The notes under the pieces are model-generated. The model did no database searches, was not told the origin of the DNA, and worked only from the letters and a program-made list of their open reading frames with translations. A DNA stretch of 64,000 nt from Shewanella cyperi (GTDB lineage: Bacteria; Pseudomonadota; Gammaproteobacteria; Enterobacterales; Shewanellaceae): assembly GCF_017354985.1 (NCBI RefSeq), contig NZ_CP071501.1, positions 1,197,501 through 1,261,500 of the forward strand. The letters are read 5' to 3'. Position numbers and translations under genes: made by a program. Positions within the stretch are counted from its first letter, which is position 1. Each line of letters opens with the position of its first letter. Shown here in pieces: positions 17,956 to 52,035 of the stretch.

Positions 17956-20900
17956 TTAGGCCGCCCGGCGACGTCTGCACAGTGCCATACCCAGCAGCAA
18001 CAGCGACCAAGGCGGCACTGAACCTCCATGGCTTTTCGTCGCCGGGGTATCGGGCTCAGTGACCGGCGTCAGGCTGACGGTCACATTCACCTGACCCTGT
18101 GCGCTGCCACCAAAGCCATCGCTGACCTGATAGCTGATCACCGCCTCACCGCTGAAGCCGCTGCTTGGGGTGTAGCGCAGGGTATTATCGGCGAGCAGCT
18201 CTACAGTGCCATTGTCAACACTGGCGCCTATGACGCTTAAGCTGTCACCATCGGGGTCTGTGTCGTTGGCCAGCACGTCAATCACCAGCACCTGGCTATC
18301 CAGAATGGCTGCGCTATCCGCTTGTGCCACAGGCAGTTGGTTCTGACTCAGCACACTGATGACGCCCGGATCTTCAATCACGCCGTTGGCAGTGCCATCG
18401 GCATCGTTGGGGCCGCCGTCCTGCAGCAGCAGTTGCACGCAGTGATAGCCTGCCACCAGGCCGGGCTCAAAACTGTCGGCACCGACTTGCGGGCACTTGC
18501 CCTCAAGCAGCGGTGCCGAGCTGATGCTGTTGCTGACGTCTTCAACAAAGTCATACCAGCCTTGCTCCGGTGTGTACTTACGATACACAGCGTCCTCGGG
18601 CAGCGCAGTGCCCCGTGGCATGGGGAATACCACGGCAACCGATTGCCCCACCTGGAAGGTGCCGCTCAGGGTAAAGTCGAGCACGGCCGCCACCTGGCTG
18701 AAGTGGCTGTCGCTGCTGTCAGCGGCGGCGGTGTCTGCCGCCACAGCATCTGCCAGGTCGTCCATGGTCATGCCGGCACCGCTGCCGGTGATCATGGCGC
18801 TGGTGATGTTGCCAAGCGCCAACTGTACACCGGCCGTGGTTTGCATTGGCTCTGTGCTGCTATTTACCGGCAAACGGCTGCTATCGACATCGTTATCCAG
18901 ATAATCGGCGATACCGTCACCATCGCTGTCGCCGTAACCTTCTTCGCTGTCGACAAGGCCGTCACCGTCGCTGTCTGCCTCGCTGCTCAGCTCTGGCAGC
19001 GACTCGACCGTGAAACGAATGCGGCGGCTGCTACTGAGCGGCGCAGGGGTATTGGTTTCGGTCACAGTCACATCCACGGCGTAGCGGCCACTGCTCAACT
19101 CGCTGGGATCAAAGGTCATGCTCAGGCCATCTTCGGCAATGCTGCCACCAAACGCTTGCTCCACCACCTGCCAGCTGACGCTATGGCTGTCATTGACGTT
19201 AACATCGCTTACCTGCAGCCGTATTTCTACCTGACCGGCAAGCGGATCCAGTAAGCGTGTAGCAACGCCCTGTTGCAGCACCTTGGCGGTGAAGGTAGGC
19301 GCCTGATTTTGCTCTGTTAACTGCAATTGTGCCTGACCATCCTCGCCAACATAGGCATGGCTCACGCTATCTATCCGGAGTGCCAGCTCGCGACCCAAGG
19401 TCAGCCCGGTTGGGACAGACACAGGCAATTCACCCTGTGTCCCCTGGGCTATGGTTGCTGTGGCGCTGTTCACTTCCTGGCCATCGACCAGCAGCGAGTA
19501 GCTCAGCTCTACCGGATACACGGGGGCTTCGCCGGTTAATTGCACTGGCAGCAGATACTCGCCACCGGCTTCAACCGTCAGGCTCTGCGCCAGCTTAAGC
19601 TGCGGCAGAATATGCACGCTGAGTGTCGTGGTGGCGGTATTGCCAGAGCTGTCGGTCGCGCCAAGCTCAAGCTCATGGGCGCCGCTTGCCAGCTCACTGC
19701 TGCCAACTATGGTTGCTGTCACATCACCGTCCACCAGATCGCTGGCGCTGATATCCAACAGTGCGCTGATATCGGTCAGGCGGCCAGTAGCGTTAATAAC
19801 CAAGGTGTCCAGCACATCAAACTCAGGTGCCGTGGTATCCAGTATAGTTACCAACTGCTCGGCAGTGGCCTGATTACCGGCCCCGTCGGTTGCCGTCCAG
19901 GTGATGAGGTGCTCACCCAGTGCCAATTCTGGCGCCAGATCCGAGCTTATGGTCAGTACCTTACTGATGTTATCTGTCACCACAGGCTCTGGCAGGGTTA
20001 CTGCTGTCACAGGCCCTGTGGCTTCAAAGGTCAGTGGTGTCAGTTCGGCAAACACCGGCTTTTGGGTATCGCCTATGCTGGGGTCCAGCGGCGCCGCATC
20101 ATCCTCATCGGGGATACCGTCGTTGTCATCGTCGGGATCGGCGTTGTTGCCTATGCCGTCACCGTCTGTATCCACAGACTCAGCAGCGTCAAGTGGGAAG
20201 GTATCCTCGCTGTCCACTACGCCGTCGTTGTCATCATCCAAATCGGCATTGTTGCCTATGCCATCAGAGTCGGTATCGACAGATTCAGCTGCGTCGAGCG
20301 GGAAGGCATCTTCAGTGTCCACTACACCGTCGTTGTCATCGTCGGTATCCAAGTTGTTGCCTATGCCATCAGCGTCTGTATCGACAGACTCGGCAGCATC
20401 GAGCGGGAAGGCATCTTCGCTGTCCACTATGCCGTCGTTGTCATCATCCATATCGGCGTTATTGCCTATGCCATCGGAGTCTGTGTCCACCGATTCGCTG
20501 GCGTCCAGCGGGAAGGCATCGTTGCTGTCCGCTACACCGTCGTTGTCGTCATCCAAATCGGCATTGTTGCCTATACCGTCATTGTCTGTATCGACAGACT
20601 CGGTCGCGTCCAGCGGGAAGGCATCGTCGCTGTCCACCACACCGTCGTTGTCATCATCTAAATCGGCATTGTTACCAATACCGTCGGCATCGGTATCGAC
20701 AGACTCAGCAGCATCCAGGGGGAAGGCATCTTCAGTGTCGAGCACGCCGTCATTGTCATCGTCGCTGTCAGCATTGTTACCAATGCTGTCGAGGTCTGTA
20801 TCGACAGATTCGCTGGCATCGAGCGGGAAGGCATCTTCAGTGTCGAGCACGCCGTCATTGTCGTCATCCAAATCAGCGTTGTTGCCAATGGCATCCTTGT

Positions 20901-23900
20901 CGGTATCGACAGACTCGGTCGCATCCAGCGGGAAGGCGTCTTCTGTGTCCACTACACCGTCGTTGTCATCATCCATATCGGCATTGTTGCCTATACCATC
21001 GAGGTCTGTATCGACAGACTCAGCAGCATCGAGCGGGAAGGTGTCTTCAGTGTCGAGCACGCCGTCGTTGTCATCATCCAAATCGGCATTGTTGCCTATA
21101 CCGTCGAGGTCGGTGTCGACAGACTCAGCAGCATCGAGCGGGAAGGCGTCCTCTGTGTCTACGACACCGTCGTTGTCATCATCCAAATCGGCGTTGTTGC
21201 CTATGCCATCGGAGTCTGTATCGACAGACTCAGCAGCATCGAGCGGGAAGGCATCTTCAGTGTCCAACACACCGTCATTGTCATCATCCAAATCGGCGTT
21301 GTTGCCAATACCGTCGAGGTCGGTATCGACAGATTCTGCCGCATCCAGTGGGAAGGCATCGTCACTGTCGACTACGCCGTCGTTGTCATCATCGGTATCG
21401 GCGTTATTGCCAATACCGTCGAGGTCGGTATCGACAGACTCACTGGCATCAAAGGGGAAGGCATCGACTATATCCAACACGCCGTCGTTGTCATCGTCGG
21501 GATCGGCGTTATTGCCTATGCCGTCGAGATCTGCATCCAGCCATTCGCTGGCATCCAAGGGGAACAGATCGCTGCTATCGGCAACGCCGTCGTTGTCGTC
21601 GTCGCTGTCGGCATTATTGCCTATGCCGTCGGAGTCGGTATCCAACCACTCGGAGGCGTCCAGTGGGAAGGCGTCCTCTGTGTCTATGACACCGTCGTTG
21701 TCATCGTCGGTATCGGCGTTGTTGCCTATACCATCGAGATCCGTATCCAACCATTCGGCGGCATTAAAGGGGAAGGCATCGGCCACATCCGCAACACCGT
21801 CGTTGTCGTCGTCCGGATCGGCGTTGTTACCTATGCCGTCGAGATCTGCATCCAGCCACTCGCTGGCATCCAGCGGGAAGGCATCGGCGGCATCCAACAC
21901 ACCATCGTTGTCATCGTCGCTATCGGCATTGTTGCCTATACCGTCCTTGTCGGTGTCGACAGATTCGCTGGCATCCAGAGGGAAGGCATCGTTGCTATCG
22001 GCTACACCATCGTTGTCATCATCGGTATCGGCATTATTGCCAATGCCATCGGCATCGGTATCCAGCCACTCGGCAGCATCCAATGGGAAGGCATCTTCGC
22101 TGTCCAACACGCCGTCGTTATCGTCGTCGTTGTCGCTGTTATTACCTATACCATCTGAGTCGGTATCCAAGGTCTCGTTGGCATCATTGGGGAAAGCATC
22201 GCTGTTATCACCGACACCATCGCTGTCGCTGTCGGTGGTTTCGGTGGCATCGTTCGGGAAAGCATCTGAGCTGTCGACGACACCGTCACCGTCAAAGTCA
22301 CCGGCATACACATATTCGATGGCACCTATATCCATCTTCGGATAGAGCGGCCCGCCCAGTTCTTCCGGGTTATCCGGATTGTATGCCCCCATTACACGGG
22401 CATTACCCAGCAAGTCGACTGCGCCTGCCGGAAGTTCACCTGTCTCACCGGCATCGATATTGGCGCTGCCCGGCACAGGTCTGTAGTCGCCATTCTCTGG
22501 ATCGGCCAATTCAACATAGCCAGTAGAGGTAACGCCACACTCGCTATCTTCTACCCAGCTGGCGGTTTGTTGCACCCAGGTTGCTACATTACACACGGTT
22601 GAACCATTAGCGCCTTTTAACAGCAGGCTATTACGCAACTGGGCTTTACCTGTGCCAACCACAGACAGAGCGCCGCCTTCACTGTTGTAAAGGGTGCTGG
22701 AGAACAGCGAAATCTGGCCGTCGTCCGTGATCAGTGCCGGATCGGAGCCACTAACATTAGCCACCAGACTGTTTTCCAGATAAAGCTCAACACTGCGGCC
22801 GCTAATAACCGGTGCTGTCATATTTTCAATCAGCACATGCTCCAACAACAGAAATGAACTGGAATACATATGCACGGCGCTGGCCTTATTATAGGTACCA
22901 AGCTCAGCATCAAAGTTTGTATAAGCGTCGGCATCAACACCCTGACTAAAACCGTTACGCAAGGTTAAGCCGACTAAATGTGGGAATTGGCTTTTGAGCA
23001 TCCTGTCGGCTATGGCAACCGCAAAAATAGCTGTCTTATTTTGCCCGTCCAGCACAACAGCTTTATTACCATCTATCTTCATGCCTTTGCCAATCACTAA
23101 CGGCGATTCAAGCATTATGGTCATAGGGCCGTTGAAGCTGATGACATTCAGATCGGCTCCGGGCTCACTGGCACATAAATCGATTAATGCCTGGCGTAAG
23201 GTACCCGGGCCACTATCGGCATTGCTGGTTACGGTGATTTGGCTTGCAGTACAAGCTTGATAAGGGTTGTCATCGATGCGCGCCCAATTGAGCACCACGT
23301 CATTTTCATCGACCAGGGTTTGTAGAGCATCTGTACCATCAATTTGGTAGAAAAAGTCGACCACGCCATCGTTATCGCGGTCTTCATCATAAATATCAGC
23401 AATACCGTCGCCATCGAAGTCAGGCAGGTCACCGTACACTGTTGGATGCGGATCAACGCCATCCAGGGTGCCGTCGCCGTCACTGTCAGGGTTTAATGCA
23501 TCTGAACCGGCAACAATTTCATCGGCATCACTTAAACCGTCATTGTCATCGTCGAGATCGGCATTGTTGCCAATGCCATCATGGTCGGTATCCAGATATT
23601 CGCTGGCATCTTTGGGAAACCTGTCTTCCCAATCCGCATAGCCATCATTGTCGTCATCTGTGTCCCAATCATCTGCTATGCCGTCGCTATCGGTATCCAA
23701 TTGCATTTTTACGCCAACAGAGCACTCGGTTGGGCCTGCCTGTGTGTGGGTATGTGGCGTGACGCAAAAACGAATAACAGTACCGGCAGCAACACTTTTC
23801 TGAAAGGTAATGCCATTCTCACCGACATAGTCGACCCAGGTGTCAGACTGTGCATACTGCCACTGGTACAGACTTTGATACTCCAAACCGTCATAGACGT

Positions 23901-26139
23901 TGTCGTTCGGCGCAACGTAAGTGTACTGTCCAATTAACCCGGAACCGGCGATAGGCTCGGCGTACTGCGGTTTAATTTTTACATTGGTTGCGAACGGTAT
24001 TTGCCCAACTTTAATCCATTTACCGCAGCGTTGGCTGTTTCTGAATGTCATGCACATGGTGACAAAGGTATTGGCATCATCGGCGGTGGCCTGATAGCCA
24101 AATTGATTGCTCGCAACCACCACAGCATCACTGACTTGCCCGGTTGCCGAACGCAGCCAGACAAAATCTGTGGCGTCAATTGAGTACGGAATATTGGCAA
24201 ACAGATAGTCGCCGGGGCGCATATTCTGGCCGACTTTATCAACATGTGGGTGGGTCGTCTGAGGGCTATACCAGGGCGGGCTATTCAATATCCGGTCAGC
24301 CAGCAGGGTTGGAACTTTAATATCAAGGCCCCAAACGTCAGTGTAATCCCCCGTATCCAGTCCAGGTAATGGCCCATCGCAGGTGCCGCAAAAGAATTCA
24401 CTGGCACTGGCTTCAACATTAATGCCAAAAAACTGCCAGGTTTCGGCATAGCTTTCCAGCAGCCCTTTGGTTTCGTTGTAACTTGGAGACTTTGGCGACA
24501 GCGGCGTCCGCATGGTTGAACCTCCCAGATTAAGATAATCCAGGGTTTGTTTGGCAGCCCAATCTTCAGGCGTCAGCCGCTCATAAAATTCAACGTGATC
24601 TCTGCGATTGTTGTCTTGTACCGCCAGTAAAAACTGGTTATTGCTTGAACTTGGATGGGTGTTGCCGGAAAAGTTTGAACCGGGTTCGAGATCGAACCAG
24701 TTCATACTGGCGGTCCATTCGATTGGTTTGTCTTCAATAATGGTATTGCCTGGTGCGTAATCGACACAGGCAGTGTTCATACTATCGAACACACAGGTGT
24801 TGTAGTGATAGGTTGCGAACCAGTGCCAATGGTCATCACTACCTATGATGACTTCATTCCAGCCGCGGTCAGCGACAAAATTGGGGAACATCTTAGCCAA
24901 GGTGCCGACGATTGGGCGCTGATCAACATCGCTGACCGGATTCATCATTTCCTGCGCAATGACGGGCTCCCAATCCCATTCCTTTTCTGAGTAAAAGGTG
25001 CGCTCCATTTGCAGCGGGTCGAAATTGGAATCCATATAGGGCAAGCGTGGCGTGTTAAACACACCACGGCTCATCGCATCCACCGGCATCGACAAATACG
25101 CACAAAAATTTTGTACATCGTCATCTTCAGCGCAGGCAGCCCGGTTTAATAGCGGCGTTGCGGCAGCACTGTGCGGGAAAAACTGAAAATTCGATTGCGG
25201 AACAGTTAGATAGCTGCCACCTCGGATATTGGTATTAGTGTCTTTAACCAGTTTAAAGGTATTGGCAATACTGCTGATATTACCCAGCACCATGAAACCG
25301 ACGCGGCCGGCATAAACCGTATCACTATTAGCCTGCTCTACAGCAGTCTCCTGCATCAGCCGCAAGGTGATGCTGTCAAAATTGCCCACGCCTTCTGTCA
25401 CCGTCGCGCCCTGATATACCGCCATATCGTTTAACTGGCGAAAGCCACTGCTTTTATAAAGCATCGGCCGCTGTAACTGCGCCACTGTTACCGCAGTTTC
25501 AAAGCTGGCGCCCAGGGCAATGGTTTGACCGCTGAAGCCGGTGTGCTTCACTTCAGCACTTGAGATCAGCAACATGCGGCCATCGGCCAGGCGGTGCCAG
25601 CCTTCTTCTGCAATCAGGTAATGCACCTTGGCACCGGCTAAGTCAGCGTTAAAACCAGTCGCCTGATTCACATCGAATAAAAACTGATTACCGGCCGTAA
25701 TCGGCGCCGTCGGCACTATGCTGACGCCGTTATTCAAGTTGGGGTCTTCCAGGCTAACAAAGACTACCGGACGATAAAAAATACGGTTAGTCCACAGGTC
25801 GGCGATCTCGTTATTGGCACCAATGGTTAAAGTGCCGGATTCGGCCGGAATACCGAGTAGCGCCGGTGCACCGTTAAACTGTACTCCAACCGCGTCTACA
25901 GTTGAGGAGCCCGCGCCATCACTGGTGGTAAAAGCCCATTTGCCATTGGCTTGTGTAACAAAGCCCGATAACGTCGGATGTACTGGCTGAAAAAACACCA
26001 GATTATCGGCATCATTCACAAAACCCTTGTCGCTGGCAGTGTTATCGACGATGGTCACTTTTTTCGTCAGGCTGGCTGCAAACAGGCTTTGTGCCGGGCA
26101 CAAGCCGATCAACAGAATCCAAATTAACCAACGCATCAT
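17956..26139 (-). CDS. Giant thrombospondin-type-3 repeat surface protein with GlyGly-CTERM
   Basis: About 2727 residues. The start at 26139 (MM before RWLIWILLIGL) begins a signal peptide with GGGGAAA upstream; the frame is open to 26175. Order: an unrecognised N-terminal region (to about 810); a small TSP3 cluster (about 814-925); a beta-helix/choice-of-anchor-like region starting SNADSGPGTLRQAL (about 970-1270); 20 exact 35-residue TSP3 units (1325-2024); HYR-like domains from about 2030; another TSP3 patch (about 2385); a region resembling choice-of-anchor U (LLQDGGPNDADG); a cadherin-like domain (NDTDPDGDSL); and the tail GGSVPPWSLLLLGMA plus CRRRR, the GlyGly-CTERM sorting signal. TSP3 units bind calcium. 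It is probably a rhombosortase-processed surface or secreted adhesin. It is last in a co-directional block after a two-component system. Confidence 0.9.
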   Translation of the reverse strand: MMRWLIWILLIGLCPAQSLFAASLTKKVTIVDNTASDKGFVNDADNLVFFQPVHPTLSGFVTQANGKWAFTTSDGAGSSTVDAVGVQFNGAPALLGIPAESGTLTIGANNEIADLWTNRIFYRPVVFVSLEDPNLNNGVSIVPTAPITAGNQFLFDVNQATGFNADLAGAKVHYLIAEEGWHRLADGRMLLISSAEVKHTGFSGQTIALGASFETAVTVAQLQRPMLYKSSGFRQLNDMAVYQGATVTEGVGNFDSITLRLMQETAVEQANSDTVYAGRVGFMVLGNISSIANTFKLVKDTNTNIRGGSYLTVPQSNFQFFPHSAAATPLLNRAACAEDDDVQNFCAYLSMPVDAMSRGVFNTPRLPYMDSNFDPLQMERTFYSEKEWDWEPVIAQEMMNPVSDVDQRPIVGTLAKMFPNFVADRGWNEVIIGSDDHWHWFATYHYNTCVFDSMNTACVDYAPGNTIIEDKPIEWTASMNWFDLEPGSNFSGNTHPSSSNNQFLLAVQDNNRRDHVEFYERLTPEDWAAKQTLDYLNLGGSTMRTPLSPKSPSYNETKGLLESYAETWQFFGINVEASASEFFCGTCDGPLPGLDTGDYTDVWGLDIKVPTLLADRILNSPPWYSPQTTHPHVDKVGQNMRPGDYLFANIPYSIDATDFVWLRSATGQVSDAVVVASNQFGYQATADDANTFVTMCMTFRNSQRCGKWIKVGQIPFATNVKIKPQYAEPIAGSGLIGQYTYVAPNDNVYDGLEYQSLYQWQYAQSDTWVDYVGENGITFQKSVAAGTVIRFCVTPHTHTQAGPTECSVGVKMQLDTDSDGIADDWDTDDDNDGYADWEDRFPKDASEYLDTDHDGIGNNADLDDDNDGLSDADEIVAGSDALNPDSDGDGTLDGVDPHPTVYGDLPDFDGDGIADIYDEDRDNDGVVDFFYQIDGTDALQTLVDENDVVLNWARIDDNPYQACTASQITVTSNADSGPGTLRQALIDLCASEPGADLNVISFNGPMTIMLESPLVIGKGMKIDGNKAVVLDGQNKTAIFAVAIADRMLKSQFPHLVGLTLRNGFSQGVDADAYTNFDAELGTYNKASAVHMYSSSFLLLEHVLIENMTAPVISGRSVELYLENSLVANVSGSDPALITDDGQISLFSSTLYNSEGGALSVVGTGKAQLRNSLLLKGANGSTVCNVATWVQQTASWVEDSECGVTSTGYVELADPENGDYRPVPGSANIDAGETGELPAGAVDLLGNARVMGAYNPDNPEELGGPLYPKMDIGAIEYVYAGDFDGDGVVDSSDAFPNDATETTDSDSDGVGDNSDAFPNDANETLDTDSDGIGNNSDNDDDNDGVLDSEDAFPLDAAEWLDTDADGIGNNADTDDDNDGVADSNDAFPLDASESVDTDKDGIGNNADSDDDNDGVLDAADAFPLDASEWLDADLDGIGNNADPDDDNDGVADVADAFPFNAAEWLDTDLDGIGNNADTDDDNDGVIDTEDAFPLDASEWLDTDSDGIGNNADSDDDNDGVADSSDLFPLDASEWLDADLDGIGNNADPDDDNDGVLDIVDAFPFDASESVDTDLDGIGNNADTDDDNDGVVDSDDAFPLDAAESVDTDLDGIGNNADLDDDNDGVLDTEDAFPLDAAESVDTDSDGIGNNADLDDDNDGVVDTEDAFPLDAAESVDTDLDGIGNNADLDDDNDGVLDTEDTFPLDAAESVDTDLDGIGNNADMDDDNDGVVDTEDAFPLDATESVDTDKDAIGNNADLDDDNDGVLDTEDAFPLDASESVDTDLDSIGNNADSDDDNDGVLDTEDAFPLDAAESVDTDADGIGNNADLDDDNDGVVDSDDAFPLDATESVDTDNDGIGNNADLDDDNDGVADSNDAFPLDASESVDTDSDGIGNNADMDDDNDGIVDSEDAFPLDAAESVDTDADGIGNNLDTDDDNDGVVDTEDAFPLDAAESVDTDSDGIGNNADLDDDNDGVVDSEDTFPLDAAESVDTDGDGIGNNADPDDDNDGIPDEDDAAPLDPSIGDTQKPVFAELTPLTFEATGPVTAVTLPEPVVTDNISKVLTISSDLAPELALGEHLITWTATDGAGNQATAEQLVTILDTTAPEFDVLDTLVINATGRLTDISALLDISASDLVDGDVTATIVGSSELASGAHELELGATDSSGNTATTTLSVHILPQLKLAQSLTVEAGGEYLLPVQLTGEAPVYPVELSYSLLVDGQEVNSATATIAQGTQGELPVSVPTGLTLGRELALRIDSVSHAYVGEDGQAQLQLTEQNQAPTFTAKVLQQGVATRLLDPLAGQVEIRLQVSDVNVNDSHSVSWQVVEQAFGGSIAEDGLSMTFDPSELSSGRYAVDVTVTETNTPAPLSSSRRIRFTVESLPELSSEADSDGDGLVDSEEGYGDSDGDGIADYLDNDVDSSRLPVNSSTEPMQTTAGVQLALGNITSAMITGSGAGMTMDDLADAVAADTAAADSSDSHFSQVAAVLDFTLSGTFQVGQSVAVVFPMPRGTALPEDAVYRKYTPEQGWYDFVEDVSNSISSAPLLEGKCPQVGADSFEPGLVAGYHCVQLLLQDGGPNDADGTANGVIEDPGVISVLSQNQLPVAQADSAAILDSQVLVIDVLANDTDPDGDSLSVIGASVDNGTVELLADNTLRYTPSSGFSGEAVISYQVSDGFGGSAQGQVNVTVSLTPVTEPDTPATKSHGGSVPPWSLLLLGMALCRRRRAA
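20068..22167 (-). repeat. Twenty tandem 105-bp units encoding TSP3 repeats
   Basis: The protein repeats DTDxDGIGNNADxDDDNDG, then a xDxxDAFPLDAxE stretch, every 35 residues, 20 times, with no insertion or deletion over 2100 bp. Units 1 and 3-6 end EWL; unit 2 and units 7-19 end ESV. The last unit diverges (PLDPSIG). Partial units continue to about 22290. Confidence 0.95.
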
Positions 26140-26184
26140 GCTGTATTTCCCCGAATAGAATTTTCTACCCTGCATTAAAACAGG

Positions 26185-26206
26185 TAAATGTGCAGGAAAA
26201 ATGCAG
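26185..26206 (-). promoter_or_regulatory. Direct-repeat operator candidate upstream of the giant surface-protein gene
   Basis: On the minus strand CTGCATTTTTC is followed directly by CTGCACATTTA: two 11-bp repeats, 46-67 bases before the start. A -10-like TTTAAT follows a few bases on. The same 16-base core (CTGCA-N6-CTGCA) recurs before the YHYH lipoprotein gene, and a variant before the kinase gene. Confidence 0.55.
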
Positions 26207-26300
26207 ATGGTAGCAAAAAGCCAGGGAGAAGTGCACTGAGGCTATGTCGGCCGCGCAGGGGGGAAAAGGAGGTGATAGCTAATTTATAAATTTGGTGAAC

Positions 26301-26316
26301 GCCTGGCTAACCAGGC
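26301..26316 (-). other. Small hairpin just after the kinase stop codon
   Basis: GCCTGG, four bases, CCAGGC abuts the stop codon of the sensor kinase gene. There is no T run, so it is a weak terminator at best. Confidence 0.35.
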
Positions 26317-27654
26317 TTAACCCGCCAATGCCGGCAGGGTGATCACCATGCGCAGCCCCCCAAGGGGCGACTCGGAGGCCTGGATTTGACCCTGGTGCGC
26401 CAGGATGATGGACTTGGCCACGGACAAACCCAGACCCGCGCCACCCGTGTCGCGGCTGCGGGAATCCTCAAGCCGGTACAGGGGCTCGAACAGGCGCTCA
26501 AGCCGGTCCGCCGCCACGCCGGGTGCACTGTCCTCCAGGGTGAGTATGATGGTTTCACCGTGGCGACCAAGGCTGAGTCGGATGCTGCCCGGCGCTTGGG
26601 TATAACGCAGGCTGTTTTCCAGCAACTTGCCGAGCGCCAGTTCGAAACTGGCTTCATCAAGGAGGGCGGGGCAGGGGGGATTGCTGCGGGCAAGGTCGAG
26701 GGAGAGTTGCAAGCCCTGGCCTGCGGCACTGCACTGAAAGCGGGTTATCCAATGGGACAGGAAATCATGCAATTCCACCCGCACCGCATTGCCGTCGAGC
26801 CGGGTCTGGTCGAGCTTGCTGGCCCGTGACAGGTCCGAGATGAAGGCATCCAGTTGCTGCATGTGCTTGAGCAGCCCCTCGATATTGGCGCTGCTGGGCG
26901 CCATGACCCCATCCTGCATGGCCTCCAGCTTCATTCTCAGTACACTGAGCGGTGTTCGCAGTTCATGGGACACATCAGTGAGCAGCTTTTCCTGTTTGGC
27001 CAGAGTGTCGAGCATCAAGGCATTGCGCTCCATCATCAGCCGTTGGGACTCACCATGGGAGCGTTGCAGCTCCTGATGGGCACGGTTGAGAGTCAACTCG
27101 CTGAAATAGCAGGTAAAGACCATGACCAGGGAGGCCAGTACGAAACGAATGAGGCTGACATGATTCCAGGCGCCATCCTGCCACAGCCCCAGATGGGTAT
27201 AGGCCATGGCAAACAGCACCAGATAAAACACGGCCACCAAGGCAGTGCCCAGGGTCCGGCCATTGAGCATGAACACGAACACCGGCAGGAAGAAGGTCCA
27301 GATCAGGATGAAGTTTTCCGCCCGGCCCTGCCAGGCCAGGGCCCAAAGGAACACTATCAAAATCAGACTTATCTGCAGCGCCGTCGATTGCAGCACGCTT
27401 GCCTGCCGCTCCGCGGTCTGACCCTGGCTGCGGCGCAGGCGAATATAGGCCAGGGTGCAGGCCAGCAGCGCCACCACATCCAGCAAGGCTATGGGCCACA
27501 TTCCCCGCAGCTGGTTGTAGAGACTGAATACCAGAAGCAACAGGATAATGGCCAACAGCAGGCCATGGAGCACCACCCGCTTGCGTCTGAGGTCAATATC
27601 GTCCTCGACAAGGGGGTGGCCTAATATGTGACTGGTACGCAGAAAATCGAACAT
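26317..27654 (-). CDS. Membrane sensor histidine kinase
   Basis: 445 residues from the ATG at 27654 (MFDFLRTSHIL), with an AAGG-type site upstream. Six hydrophobic segments fill about residues 25-205, so sensing is probably within the membrane. The HisKA box is VSHELRTPL with phospho-acceptor H230. HATPase_c follows with LLENSLRYTQ (N box), LEDSAPGV (G1) and GGAGLGLSVAKSI (G2). It lies downstream of its BaeR-like response regulator but 207 bases away, and carries its own copy of the CTGCA direct repeat upstream. It may therefore have a separate, autoregulated promoter. The signal sensed is unknown. Confidence 0.93.
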   Translation of the reverse strand: MFDFLRTSHILGHPLVEDDIDLRRKRVVLHGLLLAIILLLLVFSLYNQLRGMWPIALLDVVALLACTLAYIRLRRSQGQTAERQASVLQSTALQISLILIVFLWALAWQGRAENFILIWTFFLPVFVFMLNGRTLGTALVAVFYLVLFAMAYTHLGLWQDGAWNHVSLIRFVLASLVMVFTCYFSELTLNRAHQELQRSHGESQRLMMERNALMLDTLAKQEKLLTDVSHELRTPLSVLRMKLEAMQDGVMAPSSANIEGLLKHMQQLDAFISDLSRASKLDQTRLDGNAVRVELHDFLSHWITRFQCSAAGQGLQLSLDLARSNPPCPALLDEASFELALGKLLENSLRYTQAPGSIRLSLGRHGETIILTLEDSAPGVAADRLERLFEPLYRLEDSRSRDTGGAGLGLSVAKSIILAHQGQIQASESPLGGLRMVITLPALAG

Positions 27655-27736
27655 TCCCTTACCTTGAGGATGCTTGCCGATACAAAAACACCACTGAGAG
27701 TGCAATAAAGCTGTTGATGCTAATGAGTAAAGCACA

Positions 27737-27758
27737 GCAATGTGCAGTGAATATGCAG
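27737..27758 (-). promoter_or_regulatory. Direct-repeat operator candidate upstream of the sensor kinase gene
   Basis: On the minus strand CTGCATATTCA is followed directly by CTGCACATTGC, 83-104 bases before the kinase start. Spacing (11 bp) and sequence match the sites at 26185 and 32280. Confidence 0.5.
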
Positions 27759-27790
27759 AGTACCGAGATCCTGCCCCGGGCACTCGAATC

Positions 27791-27860
27791 CTTTTACCCT
27801 TTAACCCTTTAACCCTTTTACTTTTTAACCCTTTTACTTTTTAACCCTTTTACTTTTTTA
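27791..27860. repeat. Short tandem repeat after the response-regulator gene
   Basis: Three perfect 16-bp copies of AACCCTTTTACTTTTT (27811-27858), preceded by shorter AACCCTT units. The array starts almost at the stop codon of the response regulator gene. Slippage could change the spacing between regulator and kinase genes. Confidence 0.9.
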
Positions 27861-27861
27861 C

Positions 27862-28530
27862 CTAAGTCTCGAAGCGATAGCCCAAACCATAGATGGAGCG
27901 GATCATCTCATCCGGTGACTCCAGCTGCGCCAGCTTCTTGCGCAGGTTGCGGATATGGCTGTCCACAGTGCGTTCCGACAGCACCCTGAAGTCGCTGTAG
28001 AGCAGGTCGAGAATTTGCCCCCGGGAATAGATGCGGTTGGGGTGGCTGTAGAGCAGATGGAACAACCTGAATTCCAGCGCCGTCAGCACCACATTGTGAT
28101 GGCCATAGCTGAGCGTCAGGCTGGACTCGTCCACAGCCAACTGCGGGCCCGCCGAGGTCAGGCGGCCGTCGAGTCGGCGCAGTACGGCCCGGACCCTGGC
28201 GGTCAGTTCTCGGGCACTGTAGGGTTTGCAGACATAATCGTCTGCACCTGTATCCAGCCCCAGCAAGCGGTCGACTTCCTCCACCTTGGCCGTTGTCATT
28301 ATGATGTGCACTTCGGAAAAGGCCCGCACTTCGCGGCAGATGCTCAGCCCGTCCTTGCCCGGCAGCATCAGGTCCAGCAGCATCAGGCTGGGGGCGTCGC
28401 TGCGCACCGCCTCCACCACGGCATTGCCGTCGTTAAATACCCGGGTTTCCAATCCCTCGGCCTGCAGGTACAGCTGCATCACCTCGGCGATGTTTTTCTC
28501 ATCTTCTACGATAAAAACCTTGTGTGTCAT
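27862..28530 (-). CDS. BaeR-like OmpR/PhoB-family response regulator
   Basis: 222 residues. The receiver domain has the acidic pair IVEDE, phospho-acceptor D53 (LLDLMLPG), the switch Thr in MTTAK, and the Lys in DDYVCKPYS. The C-terminal winged helix ends RTVDSHIRNLRKKL and IRSIYGLGYRFE. AKVEEVDRLLGLDTGADDYV is close to BaeR of E. coli. OmpR/PhoB-type regulators bind 10-11-bp direct repeats, and CTGCA-N6-CTGCA repeats lie before three neighbouring genes; linking the two is inference. No such repeat is seen before this gene itself. Confidence 0.93.
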   Translation of the reverse strand: MTHKVFIVEDEKNIAEVMQLYLQAEGLETRVFNDGNAVVEAVRSDAPSLMLLDLMLPGKDGLSICREVRAFSEVHIIMTTAKVEEVDRLLGLDTGADDYVCKPYSARELTARVRAVLRRLDGRLTSAGPQLAVDESSLTLSYGHHNVVLTALEFRLFHLLYSHPNRIYSRGQILDLLYSDFRVLSERTVDSHIRNLRKKLAQLESPDEMIRSIYGLGYRFET

Positions 28531-28653
28531 AAGCTTATCTTATTTCATGAGGCTGGCCTTGGCCGGTTTGGAATTCAGCCAAGTGGTCAAGTGTTCAATG
28601 TGGTCAAACGGTTACGCCGCCGCGGGCAATTACAGGATGCTAATGGATAATCC

Positions 28654-28708
28654 GCCCAAAGGCGAGGCGCAGCCTCTGTGGTGCCACAGAGAATAACTGC
28701 GCCTTGGG
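28654..28708. repeat. Nested inverted repeat downstream of the His-rich protein gene
   Basis: An 18-bp palindrome CTCTGTGGTGCCACAGAG (28674-28691) lies inside GGCGCAG/CTGCGCC arms (28666-28672, 28697-28703), with further GCCCAA/TTGGGC pairing outside. There is no T run. It may stabilise the 3' end of the message or act as a terminator. Confidence 0.5.
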
Positions 28709-28751
28709 CCGGACGGACCCATCGCCTTGCGGTTGCCTTTCTTAGTCGCTA

Positions 28752-29381
28752 TCAGTGCTTGAGCCCTATCTGCAGACTGCTGCCATCGGCCCCCGGGGTC
28801 AGGGTTTGGCTGCGTGGCTCGCTGTAGTTGGTCAGCACAGGCCCAAGGGCTGGTGGAAAGTGCACATCGAGCATTTCGGCCTTGGCGGTGCGCGGCATAA
28901 AGCCGTCGATATGGATCACCAGGGTTTGGTATTCCTCGTGAGACTGTGGCTCATGAGCTTTGTCGTCATGCACTGTGTCATTATGGGGCATGTGGCCATG
29001 GGCCGGAGGCAGCAGGGCCTCGGCAATTTCCTCCTCCAGGCGCTGCTTCAGCTGTGCCTGGCTGGGGGCCCGGGTCTGGCGGCTGGCCAGGGACTGACCA
29101 TCGATGGATATGGTCAGCTGCTCGGCAAAGACCTGCACCAGCTGGCGGTGAAACTCTGCCAGTTTGGCCTCATCGGCCACCAGATGGGCGATTGATGGCG
29201 GCTTGCCCTGCCACTCCAGTTGGTGAAACAGTTCCGTCAGTGAGGTGGCCAGGGTCAGTGACAGGTGGTTGTGTTGCCTCAGGGTAATGTTGGCCGAGGT
29301 CATGTTGAGCCCATGGGCCCTGGCGTCTGTCATAGAGATCAGGCCACAGCAGAGGATGAGCAGCAGTGTTGTTTTCTTCAT
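28752..29381 (-). CDS. Exported protein with His-rich insert, function unknown
   Basis: 209 residues with a signal peptide (MKKTTLLLILCCGLISMTDARA). The centre has a low-complexity stretch rich in His and Asp (PAHGHMPHNDTVHDD), which could bind metal; the ends look like folded beta structure. I do not recognise a named family. It lies 141 bases downstream of the YHYH lipoprotein gene and upstream of the two-component genes, all on the minus strand. That context, and the His content shared with the YHYH motif, suggests an envelope metal or ligand role; this is inference. Confidence 0.7.
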   Translation of the reverse strand: MKKTTLLLILCCGLISMTDARAHGLNMTSANITLRQHNHLSLTLATSLTELFHQLEWQGKPPSIAHLVADEAKLAEFHRQLVQVFAEQLTISIDGQSLASRQTRAPSQAQLKQRLEEEIAEALLPPAHGHMPHNDTVHDDKAHEPQSHEEYQTLVIHIDGFMPRTAKAEMLDVHFPPALGPVLTNYSEPRSQTLTPGADGSSLQIGLKH

Positions 29382-29405
29382 TCATTTTTTCTCCCAACTC
29401 ATAGT

Positions 29406-29450
29406 GGCGGTACTGACGGGCGCCTGTTTAGGACACCCGTTAGTGCCGCC
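29406..29450. other. Hairpin between the YHYH lipoprotein and His-rich protein genes
   Basis: Arms 29406-29420 and 29436-29450 pair over 15 bases with two mismatch or G-U positions. It may attenuate read-through between the two genes. Confidence 0.45.
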
Positions 29451-29522
29451 TGCAACTTTTCGTCAGCGGCGACGCTGGTAACGGCACCGCTGTCAACGTC
29501 AGAGCTGTTAACGACAGTGCGA

Positions 29523-32195
29523 TTAACGGCAGTGCGCTGTCACCAGGTCATTGCTGCCCGTGGTGTCGTTCTTGTCCAGCCGATAGCGGAAGCGGTAGCA
29601 ATCCTTGCCTGCCTGGTAACCCGACTCGCCCGCGACCAGAGGCCGGTAGAGGATCATGGCGACGTTACCGGCGGGAATATGGGTATTGTCCGCGCTCGGG
29701 GTTACCTCTATATAGGTCCAAGTGGCGCCATTCAGGCTGAGAGTGTCGTAATCCGTCAATTCCACTTCGGTGCCGAAGGTGAAGTCTTGCAGACGCTCGT
29801 TTTCCCAGTGGGCCGCGACCGTTTGCATGGCCGTGGCCTGGCTGGCCTCGGCGCGATAGCAGCCTATGGTGTAGGGCGCGGTTTTAGAGGAGTAATACAC
29901 ATACTCGCTGCCGTCACCGTGCAGATCGTAGCCGTTGCACTCATCCAGCGGCCGCTCACCGGTTTTCACCTTTTGCGGTCTGTAATCCAGTGACGTGTAG
30001 CGACCGCCGCCGTAATTGACCCCACCGCTGGTCAGCTGGCCGCCGCCGGTGCCGAAGTACAGCGGAATGCCGTCAAACATGTAGGCCAGAGGTTTGGAGG
30101 GATCCTGGGTGTCCATCAAACACAGGGGCGCATAATGGTAGTGGTAGTCCTCGCCGTTACCTGCGTGGGCACCGCACTGATCCAGCTCACCCAGCAGCAC
30201 TGTATCGCGGCTGCTGTAGTCCTGGCCGAGCTGCGCGACTTCGTCCGGAGCGTTCTCCTTGGCGTAGTGCAATATCGGCACCCCGTCGACCGCTATGCCT
30301 ATGGGATGGTGAATGTTGAGGTTGCTGCTGGTGCTTGCCAGGTATTGGGGCACCAGGGGCACTGACCAGCTGGGCTGTTGCGGCAGCGGTACCCGGCCTA
30401 TCCAGGAATGGGTGCCGACGTTCGGCTTGTCGACGTCCAATTGCGAGCGATCCGGCAGGCCCACCAGGGTATTGACCGTCATTGTGCTGCTGTCGCAGCT
30501 GACCGACACCAGACCGGCATAGTCCTCAAAGGCCGCCGACTTGGTGGCGCAGTCGCTGGGGGTGCTGGTTGGTACATGATCGTCGTTGTTGGGGTTATAA
30601 CGTACCCGGGTCATATGCAGGCTGGCGCTGCCCAGCACCTTGCCCTCGATGGCGTTTTCCAGGGCGACCAGATCTGTGGTGCTGGCGGTTAAGCCCAGGC
30701 TGCCAACCGGGGCCGACAGGGCATAGAGGCTGAGGATATAGGTGTGCTCATCCGCTCCCTGGGAGCAGGGGGCGGAATACAGCTGCTGGCCGTTCACCGA
30801 GTTGATGCCGTACACCCCGGTGCCGTGATCCCCTTCGCTCAAGGATGTGGTCGCGGCGGGTATGTCGTACTGGATCTGATAAAAGTGGGCACCGGCAAAG
30901 TCTGTGTCCGCAGGATTGGGGAAGGTGTACATGACCAGGGCAAACGACTGGGTCCCTTCGGGCGCATTATCCCAGGACAGCGGCAACATCTTGCCATTGT
31001 CCGCCCCCTCGCAGGTGGCACTGAGTGGTAAAATCAGCTTGGATTTCAGCGCCGGACTGCTCAGATAAAAGTCACCGGAAGAGCCACCCGTGCCGGAGCT
31101 GCCTATGGTGGCCCGCACCAGCACCTCGTTATCCAGGATAAGGTTGCTGCTCCAGATAAACTGGGCATCGCTCGCGCTGTTATCGAACAGATCGGTAAAT
31201 TGGGTGTAGGCCGGTTTATTGTCGACCCCAACCGTGGTGTTGCTGTAGCTGTAGGCATTTGGCCAGAGCGAATCGTCAAAGTCGCTGGCGGCCCAGTTTT
31301 CCGGCAGCGCCCAGTGGGCGGCGTAAACTGTGGCTATGTCCGAGGGTGCTGTGGTGGCACAGCTACTGCTGGCCCTCAGTCCGGCGCTCTGGCTTAGACA
31401 AGTTGTGTCTGTGATGGGCGCGGTATAAAAGGTTTGTGCCTTCCAGCTGCTGTCGGTCTTGCCTATGATGTTGCCGCTGGCATCCTTGAACAGGGCCACC
31501 ATGCCACCATCGCCGGGATGGAAGCTGCTGCCCTGGTTGTTTTCGGTGCCCGTGCCCAGGTTTTCCTCCCAATCCACCAGGTGCATGGCCACGGTAAAGG
31601 GCTGCTTGACCCGAAAGCGCACTATGTTGGAGTTGAACTCGGTGAAGGGCACGGGATCTTTGGCGACGGCGACGCCGTTCACATACAGCTCAAAGTAGTT
31701 GTCGGCGAAAATAAAGGCGCTGATCACCTCACCATCGGCATCCAGCTCCACTATGTCGCTGCCATCCAGGGCTGCGATAGCGGCCGCCGAATTGGCATAG
31801 CTGTGACCCGACACGTAAGCATTGTAGAGATCGCTGGCCATGGGCACAGTGCTGTCCTGATAACGCACCTCGGCCGGCACCAGCCAGGAGCCGCCATCGC
31901 CATCGAAGCTGCGCCCCAGCGCGGCCACCCGGCTTCCTGCCGGGAACAGGTTGGCCAATTCCAAGCTGGCCAGCCCCTGGGTCAGGGTTGGGCTGTCGTT
32001 GCTGCCGCTACCACCTGTGCCACCTGTACCTCCTGTGCCACCCGTGCCACCTGTACCGCCCGTGCCACCAGTACCGCCGGTTCCGCCGGTGCCACCCGTG
32101 TTGCCGTTATCGGGGGCCGGGCTGCTGCCATCGCCTCCGCCACAGGCGGTCAGTACCGCCGCCATCACCAGGGGAAAGAGTAATTTTCTGGACAT
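29523..32195 (-). CDS. YHYH-domain lipoprotein with Gly-Gly-Thr linker
   Basis: 890 residues. The lipoprotein signal ends in the lipobox LTACGGG, so the protein is probably lipid-anchored. A linker of about ten Gly-Gly-Thr units follows (9-bp DNA repeat). The middle carries a region like phosphatidylethanolamine-binding/YbhB proteins (FALVMYTFPNPADTDFAGAH), and the C-terminal half has a YHYH domain (GNGEDYHYHYAPLC, then FDGIPLY, CNGYDLHG). The biochemical role of YHYH domains is not established. An 11-bp-spaced direct repeat upstream matches those before the kinase and giant-protein genes. RBS AGAGG precedes the ATG. Confidence 0.82.
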   Translation of the reverse strand: MSRKLLFPLVMAAVLTACGGGDGSSPAPDNGNTGGTGGTGGTGGTGGTGGTGGTGGTGGTGGSGSNDSPTLTQGLASLELANLFPAGSRVAALGRSFDGDGGSWLVPAEVRYQDSTVPMASDLYNAYVSGHSYANSAAAIAALDGSDIVELDADGEVISAFIFADNYFELYVNGVAVAKDPVPFTEFNSNIVRFRVKQPFTVAMHLVDWEENLGTGTENNQGSSFHPGDGGMVALFKDASGNIIGKTDSSWKAQTFYTAPITDTTCLSQSAGLRASSSCATTAPSDIATVYAAHWALPENWAASDFDDSLWPNAYSYSNTTVGVDNKPAYTQFTDLFDNSASDAQFIWSSNLILDNEVLVRATIGSSGTGGSSGDFYLSSPALKSKLILPLSATCEGADNGKMLPLSWDNAPEGTQSFALVMYTFPNPADTDFAGAHFYQIQYDIPAATTSLSEGDHGTGVYGINSVNGQQLYSAPCSQGADEHTYILSLYALSAPVGSLGLTASTTDLVALENAIEGKVLGSASLHMTRVRYNPNNDDHVPTSTPSDCATKSAAFEDYAGLVSVSCDSSTMTVNTLVGLPDRSQLDVDKPNVGTHSWIGRVPLPQQPSWSVPLVPQYLASTSSNLNIHHPIGIAVDGVPILHYAKENAPDEVAQLGQDYSSRDTVLLGELDQCGAHAGNGEDYHYHYAPLCLMDTQDPSKPLAYMFDGIPLYFGTGGGQLTSGGVNYGGGRYTSLDYRPQKVKTGERPLDECNGYDLHGDGSEYVYYSSKTAPYTIGCYRAEASQATAMQTVAAHWENERLQDFTFGTEVELTDYDTLSLNGATWTYIEVTPSADNTHIPAGNVAMILYRPLVAGESGYQAGKDCYRFRYRLDKNDTTGSNDLVTAHCR
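32011..32100 (-). repeat. Ten 9-bp units encoding Gly-Gly-Thr
   Basis: Ten consecutive degenerate 9-mers of the CCACCTGTG type on the plus strand. They encode the flexible linker after the lipobox and may vary in number between strains. Confidence 0.92.
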
Positions 32196-32534
32196 GGACC
32201 ACCTCTACTATGCTGTTGAGATTCAGTTGCTATTCAATGAAAACAAGATTGCACTTGTGCATAGGTGCACTCTAAGGCGGGAATATGCAGGAAAAATGCA
32301 GCGACGCTGTTTGTCGCAATTTCTCTGCCGGGCCGTTTATTGTTTAACAGGGATAGCAACAGTCAGCAGACCTATGCCTGTCGGATAGCGGTCCCGCTTG
32401 GCCAGCCTCTCCCTCGATCTGGGTTTGACGGCTATAATGAATAGTTGTTGGCATTAGAAGTAATTGATTTTAAGCTGGATCTCATTCGGCTGTGTCTATT
32501 GGAAAAGTGCGTTCAGAACCACAGGAGACTTAAG
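32196..32534. other. Divergent intergenic region between YHYH lipoprotein and EAL genes
   Basis: Holds the direct-repeat site at 32280-32301 for the minus-strand gene. A TATAAT hexamer at 32433-32438 could be the -10 of the EAL gene; no good -35 is seen. No gene is apparent. Confidence 0.5.
32280..32301 (-). promoter_or_regulatory. Direct-repeat operator candidate upstream of the YHYH lipoprotein gene
   Basis: On the minus strand CTGCATTTTTC is followed by CTGCATATTCC, 85-106 bases before the start. Its first 16 bases are identical to those of the site at 26191-26206. Confidence 0.55.
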
Positions 32535-33299
32535 ATGGAGGAGATCAAGATGAACCAGGAGTGGTCGACCTGCGGGAACTGCGTAAACCGGGAGCAACTG
32601 GGGTTTGATTTCACCATGGCATTTCAGCCCATCATCAATGTGGCCACTCAAACGGTGTTTGGTTACGAAGCCCTGGTTCGTGGCCTGAACAATGAGTCGG
32701 CCTTCTCGGTGATATCCAGGGTCACGGATGAAAACCGCTATTTGTTTGATCAGCTCTGTCGTGTCAAGGCCATTGCCCTGGCGTCAAAGCTCGGCATAGA
32801 TTGCATGCTGAGTATTAATTTTCTTCCCAATGCCATCTATAAGCCCGAGCGCTGCATTCGTACCACCCTGGCATCGGCCAAAGAATACGGCTTTCCACTT
32901 GAACGGATCATGTTTGAGTTCACTGAGGTCGAGAAGATTGAGGACAGCGACCACGTCAAGAACATTGTTAAATACTATCAGTCGCTTGGATTTAAGACCG
33001 CCACGGACGATTTCGGCTCCGGTTATTCGGGCCTGAACCTGCTGGCGGATTTCCAAACCGATATTATCAAGCTGGATATGGGGCTTATCCGCCATATCGA
33101 CAGCGACAGGGTGCGCCAGGCCATAGTCAGCCACTGCCTGCAGCTGTTTCGCAGCCTGAATATCACCCCTCTGGCGGAAGGCATTGAAACCCTGGCCGAA
33201 TATCACTGGTTGCGGGACGCCGGAGTCGAGTTGATGCAGGGATACCTGTTTGCCGCCCCTGGATTCGAATCTCTGCCCGAGATTAATTTTGTCTCCTGA
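32535..33299 (+). CDS. EAL-domain c-di-GMP phosphodiesterase
   Basis: About 254 residues, almost entirely an EAL domain. The signature reads YEALVRG, with substrate and metal residues visible in SINFLPNAIY, FEFTEVEKIED, DDFGSGYSGLNLL and PLAEGIET, so hydrolysis of c-di-GMP to pGpG is expected. The N-terminus has a CGNC pair. The sequence is like the EAL half of BLUF-EAL proteins but no BLUF domain is present. Two starts are equally good: ATG 32535 (AGGAG seven bases upstream) and ATG 32550 (GGAGGAG six bases upstream). It is divergent from the YHYH lipoprotein gene. Confidence 0.9.
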   Translation: MEEIKMNQEWSTCGNCVNREQLGFDFTMAFQPIINVATQTVFGYEALVRGLNNESAFSVISRVTDENRYLFDQLCRVKAIALASKLGIDCMLSINFLPNAIYKPERCIRTTLASAKEYGFPLERIMFEFTEVEKIEDSDHVKNIVKYYQSLGFKTATDDFGSGYSGLNLLADFQTDIIKLDMGLIRHIDSDRVRQAIVSHCLQLFRSLNITPLAEGIETLAEYHWLRDAGVELMQGYLFAAPGFESLPEINFVS

Positions 33300-51269: not shown

Positions 51270-51756
51270 TCATTCATAATGAAAACAAGAGTCAACCAAT
51301 TTTTTGTATGTTGTTGATATATAAGGCTTCATTCTTGGATGAACTATTCGTATAGTCGTAAGGTGCACTGTCTCGAAGGTGACTGAATGAACTGTTCATG
51401 GGCGAAGGAGTAAATGGTCTTTACGATAAATGCTGAGGTAGTTGGCGGATTTTGAAGGGGGGACTACGTGTAAAGATGTCTCACATTACGGCAGGGAAGA
51501 TAGAGTGTAGAAAGCTACAACAAGATTTTTCTGAGGTCTTGCTGGTCGTTTCGAAGTGGCGTACTTCAGGTTAAATTGTTCGGCTACACACTTATTACTC
51601 ATTGGTGTCGCTGAAAGGGGGGTTGGGCGCGTAGCCGAGGCAAAGCGATAAGCTCTCTATCGCGAGGAAGGAAAACCAATGGCACTGAGACCTTTATAGA
51701 AAAATCTGCTAAGTTCCCCGGATATCTCAAGGACGACAGGACAAGGTGAAGGATAA
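51270..51756. other. Intergenic region upstream of the ATPase unit
   Basis: About 490 bp. A 32-codon frame at 51476-51574 has no good ribosome site and is not called. No clear repeat, RNA or hairpin was recognised. Confidence 0.4.
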
Positions 51757-52035
51757 ATGCAGCGACGTCAGAGAAAACCCAAACAACCAAGCACTTGGGT
51801 TGATTTTCTCCTGGGGCAATTCGCCGCAGCCGTTTTTGCGGTGCCTACGGCACTGGTGCTGTGGCTTTTAGTTGCCAAGTCTGTCAGTGGTATCGGCCCG
51901 TCAGACACCTTGATTGGCTGGGGTGGTTTTTGGCTGATCCTCGGTTGCTTCGCGTTTGTATCAGTCTTTTTTCCTAAAGCATTTCCCGACCTGCTCGGTA
52001 AAATCTGGGAAGCATTATTTGATCTGAAGCGTTGA
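51757..52035 (+). CDS. Small two-helix membrane protein, function unknown
   Basis: 92 residues. A basic N-terminus (MQRRQRKPKQ) is followed by two hydrophobic segments (FAAAVFAVPTALVLWLLVA and WGGFWLILGCFAFVSVFF) and a short charged tail (WEALFDLKR). AAGGATAA precedes the ATG. No family is recognised. It is divergent from the ATPase unit and lies just before the dispersed repeats. It could be an accessory of that unit or unrelated. Confidence 0.6.
   Translation: MQRRQRKPKQPSTWVDFLLGQFAAAVFAVPTALVLWLLVAKSVSGIGPSDTLIGWGGFWLILGCFAFVSVFFPKAFPDLLGKIWEALFDLKR

Follow-up and report, generated by a model that had tools for sequence, protein, structure and literature searches.

What does the direct repeat CTGCA-N6-CTGCA do in front of three neighbouring genes of Shewanella cyperi, and which regulator reads it? 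The repeat lies in a 64-kb stretch of the genome (contig NZ_CP071501.1, positions 1,197,501 to 1,261,500; hereafter the window), within a minus-strand block that encodes, in order, a YHYH lipoprotein, a 209-amino-acid (aa) secreted protein, an OmpR-family response regulator, a membrane histidine kinase and a giant TSP3 protein. Sequence comparison indicates that a BaeR-type envelope regulator, whose gene lies among the three that the repeat precedes, very probably binds there, and we are highly confident in reading the repeat as a tandem BaeR-type operator-promoter that would drive the YHYH, MASE6 kinase and TSP3 genes.

Exactly three exact copies of the repeat are present in the window, all on the minus strand, which is the sense strand of the respective downstream gene; shuffled versions of the window contain 0.35 copies on average, and at least three copies in only 1 of 100 shuffles. 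The boxes and the -10-like hexamers that follow them are:

26191..26206, minus strand: putative tandem BaeR-type box CTGCATTTTTCCTGCA before the TSP3 gene, kept before the TSP3 orthologues of the sister genomes G007, G047 and G100
26174..26179, minus strand: -10-like hexamer TTTAAT of the TSP3 promoter, with TG before it (extended -10)
27743..27758, minus strand: putative tandem BaeR-type box CTGCATATTCACTGCA before the sensor kinase gene, kept in G007 and present in a diverged form in G100 and G047
27726..27731, minus strand: -10-like hexamer TTTACT of the kinase promoter, with TG before it
32286..32301, minus strand: putative tandem BaeR-type box CTGCATTTTTCCTGCA before the YHYH lipoprotein gene, kept in G007
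32269..32274, minus strand: -10-like hexamer TAGAGT of the YHYH promoter, kept in G007

An earlier note on this DNA had placed the repeat before these three genes on their sense strand, which the exact copies bear out, while the ranges it gave run 6 bases too far downstream. Its remark that two copies share 16 identical bases is borne out by the outer boxes, which carry the same 16-mer, and the -10-like sequence that it saw behind the second repeat begins 11 nucleotides (nt) past the second CTGCA at all three sites. It had also compared the layout to PhoB-type activation, and this comparison holds: two CTNCAYATT half-sites stand head to tail with a period of 11 base pairs (bp), i.e., one helical turn, replace the -35 element and stop ~7 nt short of a sigma-70 -10 hexamer, often with a TG extension. 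The -10 lies 28 bases from the box start here and 29 bases in the phoA Pho box, as checked in the E. coli sequence. The half-site and the regulator clade differ from those of the Pho system. Direct-repeat boxes of the same 5-N6-5 format are used by other OmpR-family regulators, namely CreB (TTCAC-N6-TTCAC) and BqsR/CarR (TTAAG-N6-TTAAG), with different core words and regulators.

The distances from site start to ATG are 67 bases for the TSP3 gene, 104 for the kinase gene and 106 for the YHYH gene. Two of these rest on re-assigned start codons, as the starts of the open reading frame caller, GTG 27783 for the kinase and ATG 26175 for the TSP3 protein, appear to be too early: with them, the kinase box would fall within its own reading frame and the TSP3 start within its own -10. 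The probable kinase start is ATG 27654, which gives 445 aa and agrees with the G100 orthologue, and that of the TSP3 protein is probably ATG 26139, preceded by GGGG and followed by the signal peptide MMRWLIWILL. With these starts all three boxes lie upstream of their genes. The predicted targets and the candidate activator are:

17956..26139, minus strand: giant TSP3-repeat surface protein with TSP_3, HYR and Big_9 domains, 2727 aa from ATG 26139
26317..27654, minus strand: membrane sensor histidine kinase with MASE6, HisKA and HATPase domains by domain matches, 445 aa from ATG 27654
27862..28530, minus strand: BaeR-like OmpR-family response regulator, 222 aa, the candidate activator (PDB, NCBIfam and tree comparison)
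29523..32195, minus strand: 890-aa lipoprotein with PBP (YbhB-like) and YHYH domains by domain matches

Across the 4.14-Mb genome, the bare repeat occurs 17 times, near chance density, and was rejected as a genome-wide marker because most of these copies lack the flanks. The extended motif CTGCATNYTYMCTGCAYATT-N7-TNNANT, which fixes the -10 at its register, is specific: it has four exact copies, none in the reversed control, and all four are found beside the genes for BaeR-like regulators, of which the genome has only two (two matches at E <= 1e-45 with the window regulator protein as query). The density of the bare repeat is what one would expect if three unrelated CTGCA pairs had arisen in an A+T-rich intergenic setting, but the specificity of the extended motif, the common -10 register, the conservation at orthologous places and the recurrence at other loci and in other families described below make such a coincidence practically negligible. 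A loose pattern with two mismatches gave ~400 matches in the same genome, above its control but otherwise uninformative.

The fourth extended-motif copy, at 295170, is 0.93 Mb away from the window, directly downstream of the gene for a second, paralogous regulator of the BaeR-like type (RR2), which is accompanied by a propeller-type kinase. RR2 is 61% identical to the window regulator, and their recognition helices are almost identical (RTVDSHIRNVRKKL vs RTVDSHIRNLRKKL). Behind the box comes an operon that encodes a HisKA-only protein of 91 aa, a TIGR02999 ECF sigma factor (match above cut-off) and a PknB-like Ser/Thr kinase with TPR repeats, and a paralogue of the TSP3 protein is encoded divergently from it. 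The window locus and the 295-kb locus probably form one network. In the genome-wide scan that the earlier note had called for, the bare repeat was near chance density and its extended form specific, and the note's “local” regulon describes the three window genes without covering this second locus with its box and paralogous regulator.

In its pairing of a TIGR02999 ECF sigma factor with a PknB-like kinase, the 295-kb locus is similar to non-canonical ECF sigma/Ser-Thr kinase systems of the EcfP/PknT type. In contrast to these, the operon begins with the HisKA-only protein behind a BaeR-type box, an arrangement not found in the other genomes searched. The HisKA-only protein (genome 294842-295114, minus strand; L074:6842-7114) has no ATPase domain, lies directly before the ECF sigma gene and may be the remainder of a truncated kinase or else act in phosphotransfer; among 128 genomes there was no second example of it as a separate gene, all matches being full kinases. 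A candidate fifth site at 299182 (L074:11182) has three mismatches and a matrix score of 11.1, or 6.7 without training on the window clade, and is too weak to claim. A second giant TSP3 protein, with delta-60 repeats (L074:11422-17556), is encoded 240 bp downstream of it.

Conservation analysis showed that the boxes are maintained in sister species. All three are kept at orthologous places in the Shewanella genome G007, and G047 and G100 keep the TSP3 box and carry a diverged box between regulator and kinase. Since the coding sequence around the boxes is 60–93% identical at the protein level in these genomes, the boxes are conserved and not merely recent copies. The same comparison reveals a loss: in G007, G047 and G100 the regulator gene is immediately preceded by that of a propeller kinase, which the window lacks apart from a scar.

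28632..28669, minus strand: 38-bp scar, the 3′ end of a deleted propeller histidine kinase gene of ~3.2 kb (94.7% identity with the terminal part of the G007 gene, which encodes a 1074-aa kinase)

This remnant indicates that the window regulator has lost its probable cognate kinase, and at present it may rely on the MASE6 kinase or on the paralogous propeller kinase encoded at 295 kb. Either regulator could bind the window boxes. With the adjacent kinase gone here and kept in three sister species, and with a close relative of nearly the same recognition helix encoded right beside a box, one could also argue for a genuine box of the BaeR type whose main activator is RR2, the window regulator being a partner or a degenerating copy. 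We consider this possible but rather unlikely: the window regulator is an intact protein with 95% identity to its G007 orthologue, and this orthologue is the only BaeR-like regulator that our search shows in G007, yet all three boxes are kept there.

The association of the box with BaeR-like regulators extends through the genus. A scan of 130 Shewanella genomes with up to two mismatches listed 41 matches in 32 genomes (reversed control, 5), 29 of which adjoin BaeSR-like genes by our count. In many species the box separates a divergent BaeS-BaeR pair from the gene of a small secreted “KPPQEA” protein; it also precedes operons of a small protein, a kinase and a regulator (G017 and G023) and an operon of an ASST/PKD lipoprotein, kinase and regulator (G011), and the window locus is counted among these contexts too. 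Four matches are unlinked to two-component genes, and each of them precedes a YHYH-domain lipoprotein. These unlinked lipoproteins are an independent tie between the putative promoter box and the YHYH gene of the window. Among 28 sites, nearly all have CTGCA or CTCCA as half-site core, a G is found two bases before the -10 in 23 and an A at the second -10 position in 21. Both columns were free in the genus pattern, and their conservation points to an extended -10, TGnTA.

Beyond the genus, the refined pattern with one mismatch gave 35 matches in 395 genomes of the order and none in the control. About half of 20 fetched loci have neighbours of the BaeSR, YHYH, KPP or MASE6 type, in other families among them BaeSR followed by the box and by YHYH with its partner (L190), BaeS-box-KPP (L191), a PBP/YHYH-like protein (L195), and window-type MASE6 kinases followed by the box and a secreted protein (L200 and L203). 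The remaining half lack such neighbours and include three near-identical copies (L204-L206). Genes resembling efflux membrane-fusion proteins, as judged by eye, follow the boxes in L208 and L209.

The earlier note had called the window regulator a BaeR-like member of the OmpR family, and both its receiver (PF00072) and its winged-helix domain (PF00486) score above cut-off. Its best PDB match is E. coli BaeR (4b09) with 220 bits, followed by 151 bits for the next, and the NCBIfam model of BaeR is its best by 66 bits. It is 47% identical to BaeR compared to 38% to PhoB and 39% to CreB (31–39% for PhoB, CreB, ArcA, CpxR and QseB), and its recognition helix is RTVDSHIRNLRKKL, compared to RTIDSHIKNLRRKL in E. 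coli BaeR. Published BaeR boxes, TTTTTCTCCATDATTGGC / TCTNCANAA, contain a CTNCA core (PMC3799227), to which the Shewanella half-sites CTGCA and CTCCA conform. In the E. coli mdtA promoter, the best match of our matrix is CTCCATTTTTCTCCCTTATTGGCTGGCTACACT (score 17.9), which overlaps the known BaeR box, starts a full repeat further upstream and has TACACT in the -10 slot; at spy the best match starts at the known box, again with TACACT in the -10 slot, with a low score of 6.1. Another OmpR-family regulator such as PhoB or CreB might be proposed as the reader of the box, as the layout departs from that of the phoA Pho box by no more than one base. However, CTNCAYATT is unlike CTGTCAT, the bare half-site fits the BaeR core, and the presence of the motif follows regulators that are closer to BaeR than to PhoB, which renders such a reader very improbable.

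Several observations weigh against a BaeR-type reading or limit the evidence for it. The window regulator reaches 279.8 bits with NF007982 and remains below its equivalog cut-off of 380 bits, and a tree with BaeR, PhoB, CreB, ArcA, CpxR and QseB leaves the deep forks without resolution; for both reasons we label it BaeR-like and not BaeR. A clean CTNCA-N6-CTNCA tandem was not found in E. coli mdtA and spy, where mdtA reads CTCCA-N5-CTCCC and the second half-site of spy is degenerate. BaeR-like lineages L180-L186 have no box at the loci scored. The window boxes score 30.6, 30.3 and 25.9 with the matrix and the next match in the window 13.6, a ranking that is partly circular as the matrix was trained on sites found by window-derived patterns. 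Finally, the motif is present in 26 of 38 genomes with a BaeR-like regulator and in 6 of 90 without, but the corresponding Fisher P of ~1e-12 treats related genomes as independent and is made too small by shared ancestry. For a less biased test, 17 loci were selected on the regulator protein only; most come from genomes in which the two-mismatch scan had no match. Nine of them score at least 22.9, compared to a reversed-sequence maximum of 11.5, with the matches in the expected intergenic places; the eight without a box mostly belong to other regulator sub-lineages. These loci add boxes at YHYH genes divergent from BaeSR (G105 and G124), at Spy/CpxP-like LTXXQ genes (G046) and at a CotH lipoprotein gene (G008). 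Giant TSP3 genes directly adjoin BaeR-like regulator-kinase pairs in G109 and G023 (L181 and L182), where no box is present, so that the link between TSP3 and BaeSR recurs without the box promoter.

In the mechanism that we propose, an envelope signal would lead a BaeS-like kinase to phosphorylate the BaeR-like regulator, which would then, as a head-to-tail dimer, occupy both half-sites across the -35 region and recruit RNA polymerase in a class II, PhoB-like manner. The window targets activated in this way would be the YHYH lipoprotein together with the 209-aa protein, the MASE6 kinase and the giant TSP3 surface protein, and the kinase gene behind the box would provide positive feedback. The regulator itself is perhaps autoregulated by read-through from the YHYH promoter, which is plainer in G007 because of the short intergenic gaps there. 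RR2 and its propeller kinase would use the same box before the operon of HisKA-only protein, ECF sigma factor and Ser/Thr kinase. That one signalling system controls the lipoprotein, the kinase and the TSP3 gene, as the earlier note had put it, is supported at the level of sequence comparison by the footprints in three sister species, the co-occurrence with BaeR-like regulators and the YHYH/BaeSR contexts elsewhere.

TSP3 repeats bind calcium in animal thrombospondins, and the giant protein has dozens of DxDxDG-like repeats. It could therefore be a calcium-binding surface protein whose supply is matched to extracellular calcium as the signal. We regard this as distinctly unlikely: no sensor domain, target or neighbour examined points to calcium, and general envelope stress would account just as well for the other box targets (YHYH, LTXXQ/Spy-like, CotH and ASST lipoproteins).

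The proposed BaeR-type system shares with the BaeSR regulon of Enterobacteriaceae a regulator for which BaeR is the closest among solved or curated ones, the CTNCA core, a class-II-like place before the -10 and, in one Shewanella species (G046), an LTXXQ gene under the box. In contrast, the Shewanella box is a strict head-to-tail tandem of two good half-sites, the predicted window targets are YHYH and TSP3 proteins instead of mdtABCD and spy (no spy or mdtABCD-type RND efflux target was found in the window), and the kinases of the window clade have MASE6 or propeller-type sensor parts. A literature search found no work on BaeSR in Shewanella, almost nothing on YHYH and nothing relevant on TSP3 in Shewanella. 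What is new is the strict tandem form, the predicted YHYH and giant TSP3 targets, and the second locus with its ECF sigma/Ser-Thr kinase pair. This comparison suggests a cleaner tandem, PhoB-like promoter of which the BaeR box of E. coli, single and ragged, is a reduced version. More broadly, we see about an even chance that this is an ancient BaeR-family regulon of the order, apart from the E. coli efflux-and-chaperone regulon, with YHYH lipoproteins and secreted partners as recurrent outputs of a strict tandem CTNCA promoter, to which the window clade would have added captured giant TSP3 proteins and a wiring via the HisKA-only protein to the ECF sigma/Ser-Thr kinase cascade. To our knowledge, no function is known for YHYH proteins or for the giant TSP3 proteins of bacteria, and a promoter signature that links the two to envelope signalling of the BaeR type in several families would offer a direct handle on what they do.

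The remaining gene of the block is:

28752..29381, minus strand: 209-aa His-rich secreted protein, downstream of the YHYH gene (82% identical to its G007 orthologue)

Family and domain model searches gave no match for this protein, and BLAST gave no support for shared ancestry with the secreted protein that accompanies YHYH in other species. The tail of the window TSP3 protein, GGSVPPW...RRRR (17956-18030), and that of its paralogue, GGSLPLW...RRRK, resemble GlyGly-CTERM sorting signals; neither tail matched a model at E 0.001. A short tandem array with units of ~8 and 16 bases (GGGTTAAAAAGTAAAA) lies at 27787-27861, between the regulator and kinase genes and just upstream of the kinase box. 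The much weaker fourth matrix match of the window, CTGCATTTATCCTTCACCTTGTCCTGTCGTCCT, is at 51730-51762 on the minus strand. Divergent from the YHYH promoter is a gene for an EAL-domain (c-di-GMP phosphodiesterase-like) protein at 32445-33299, and GGDEF/EAL genes adjoin the canonical BaeSR locus in other Shewanella as well (e.g., L120).

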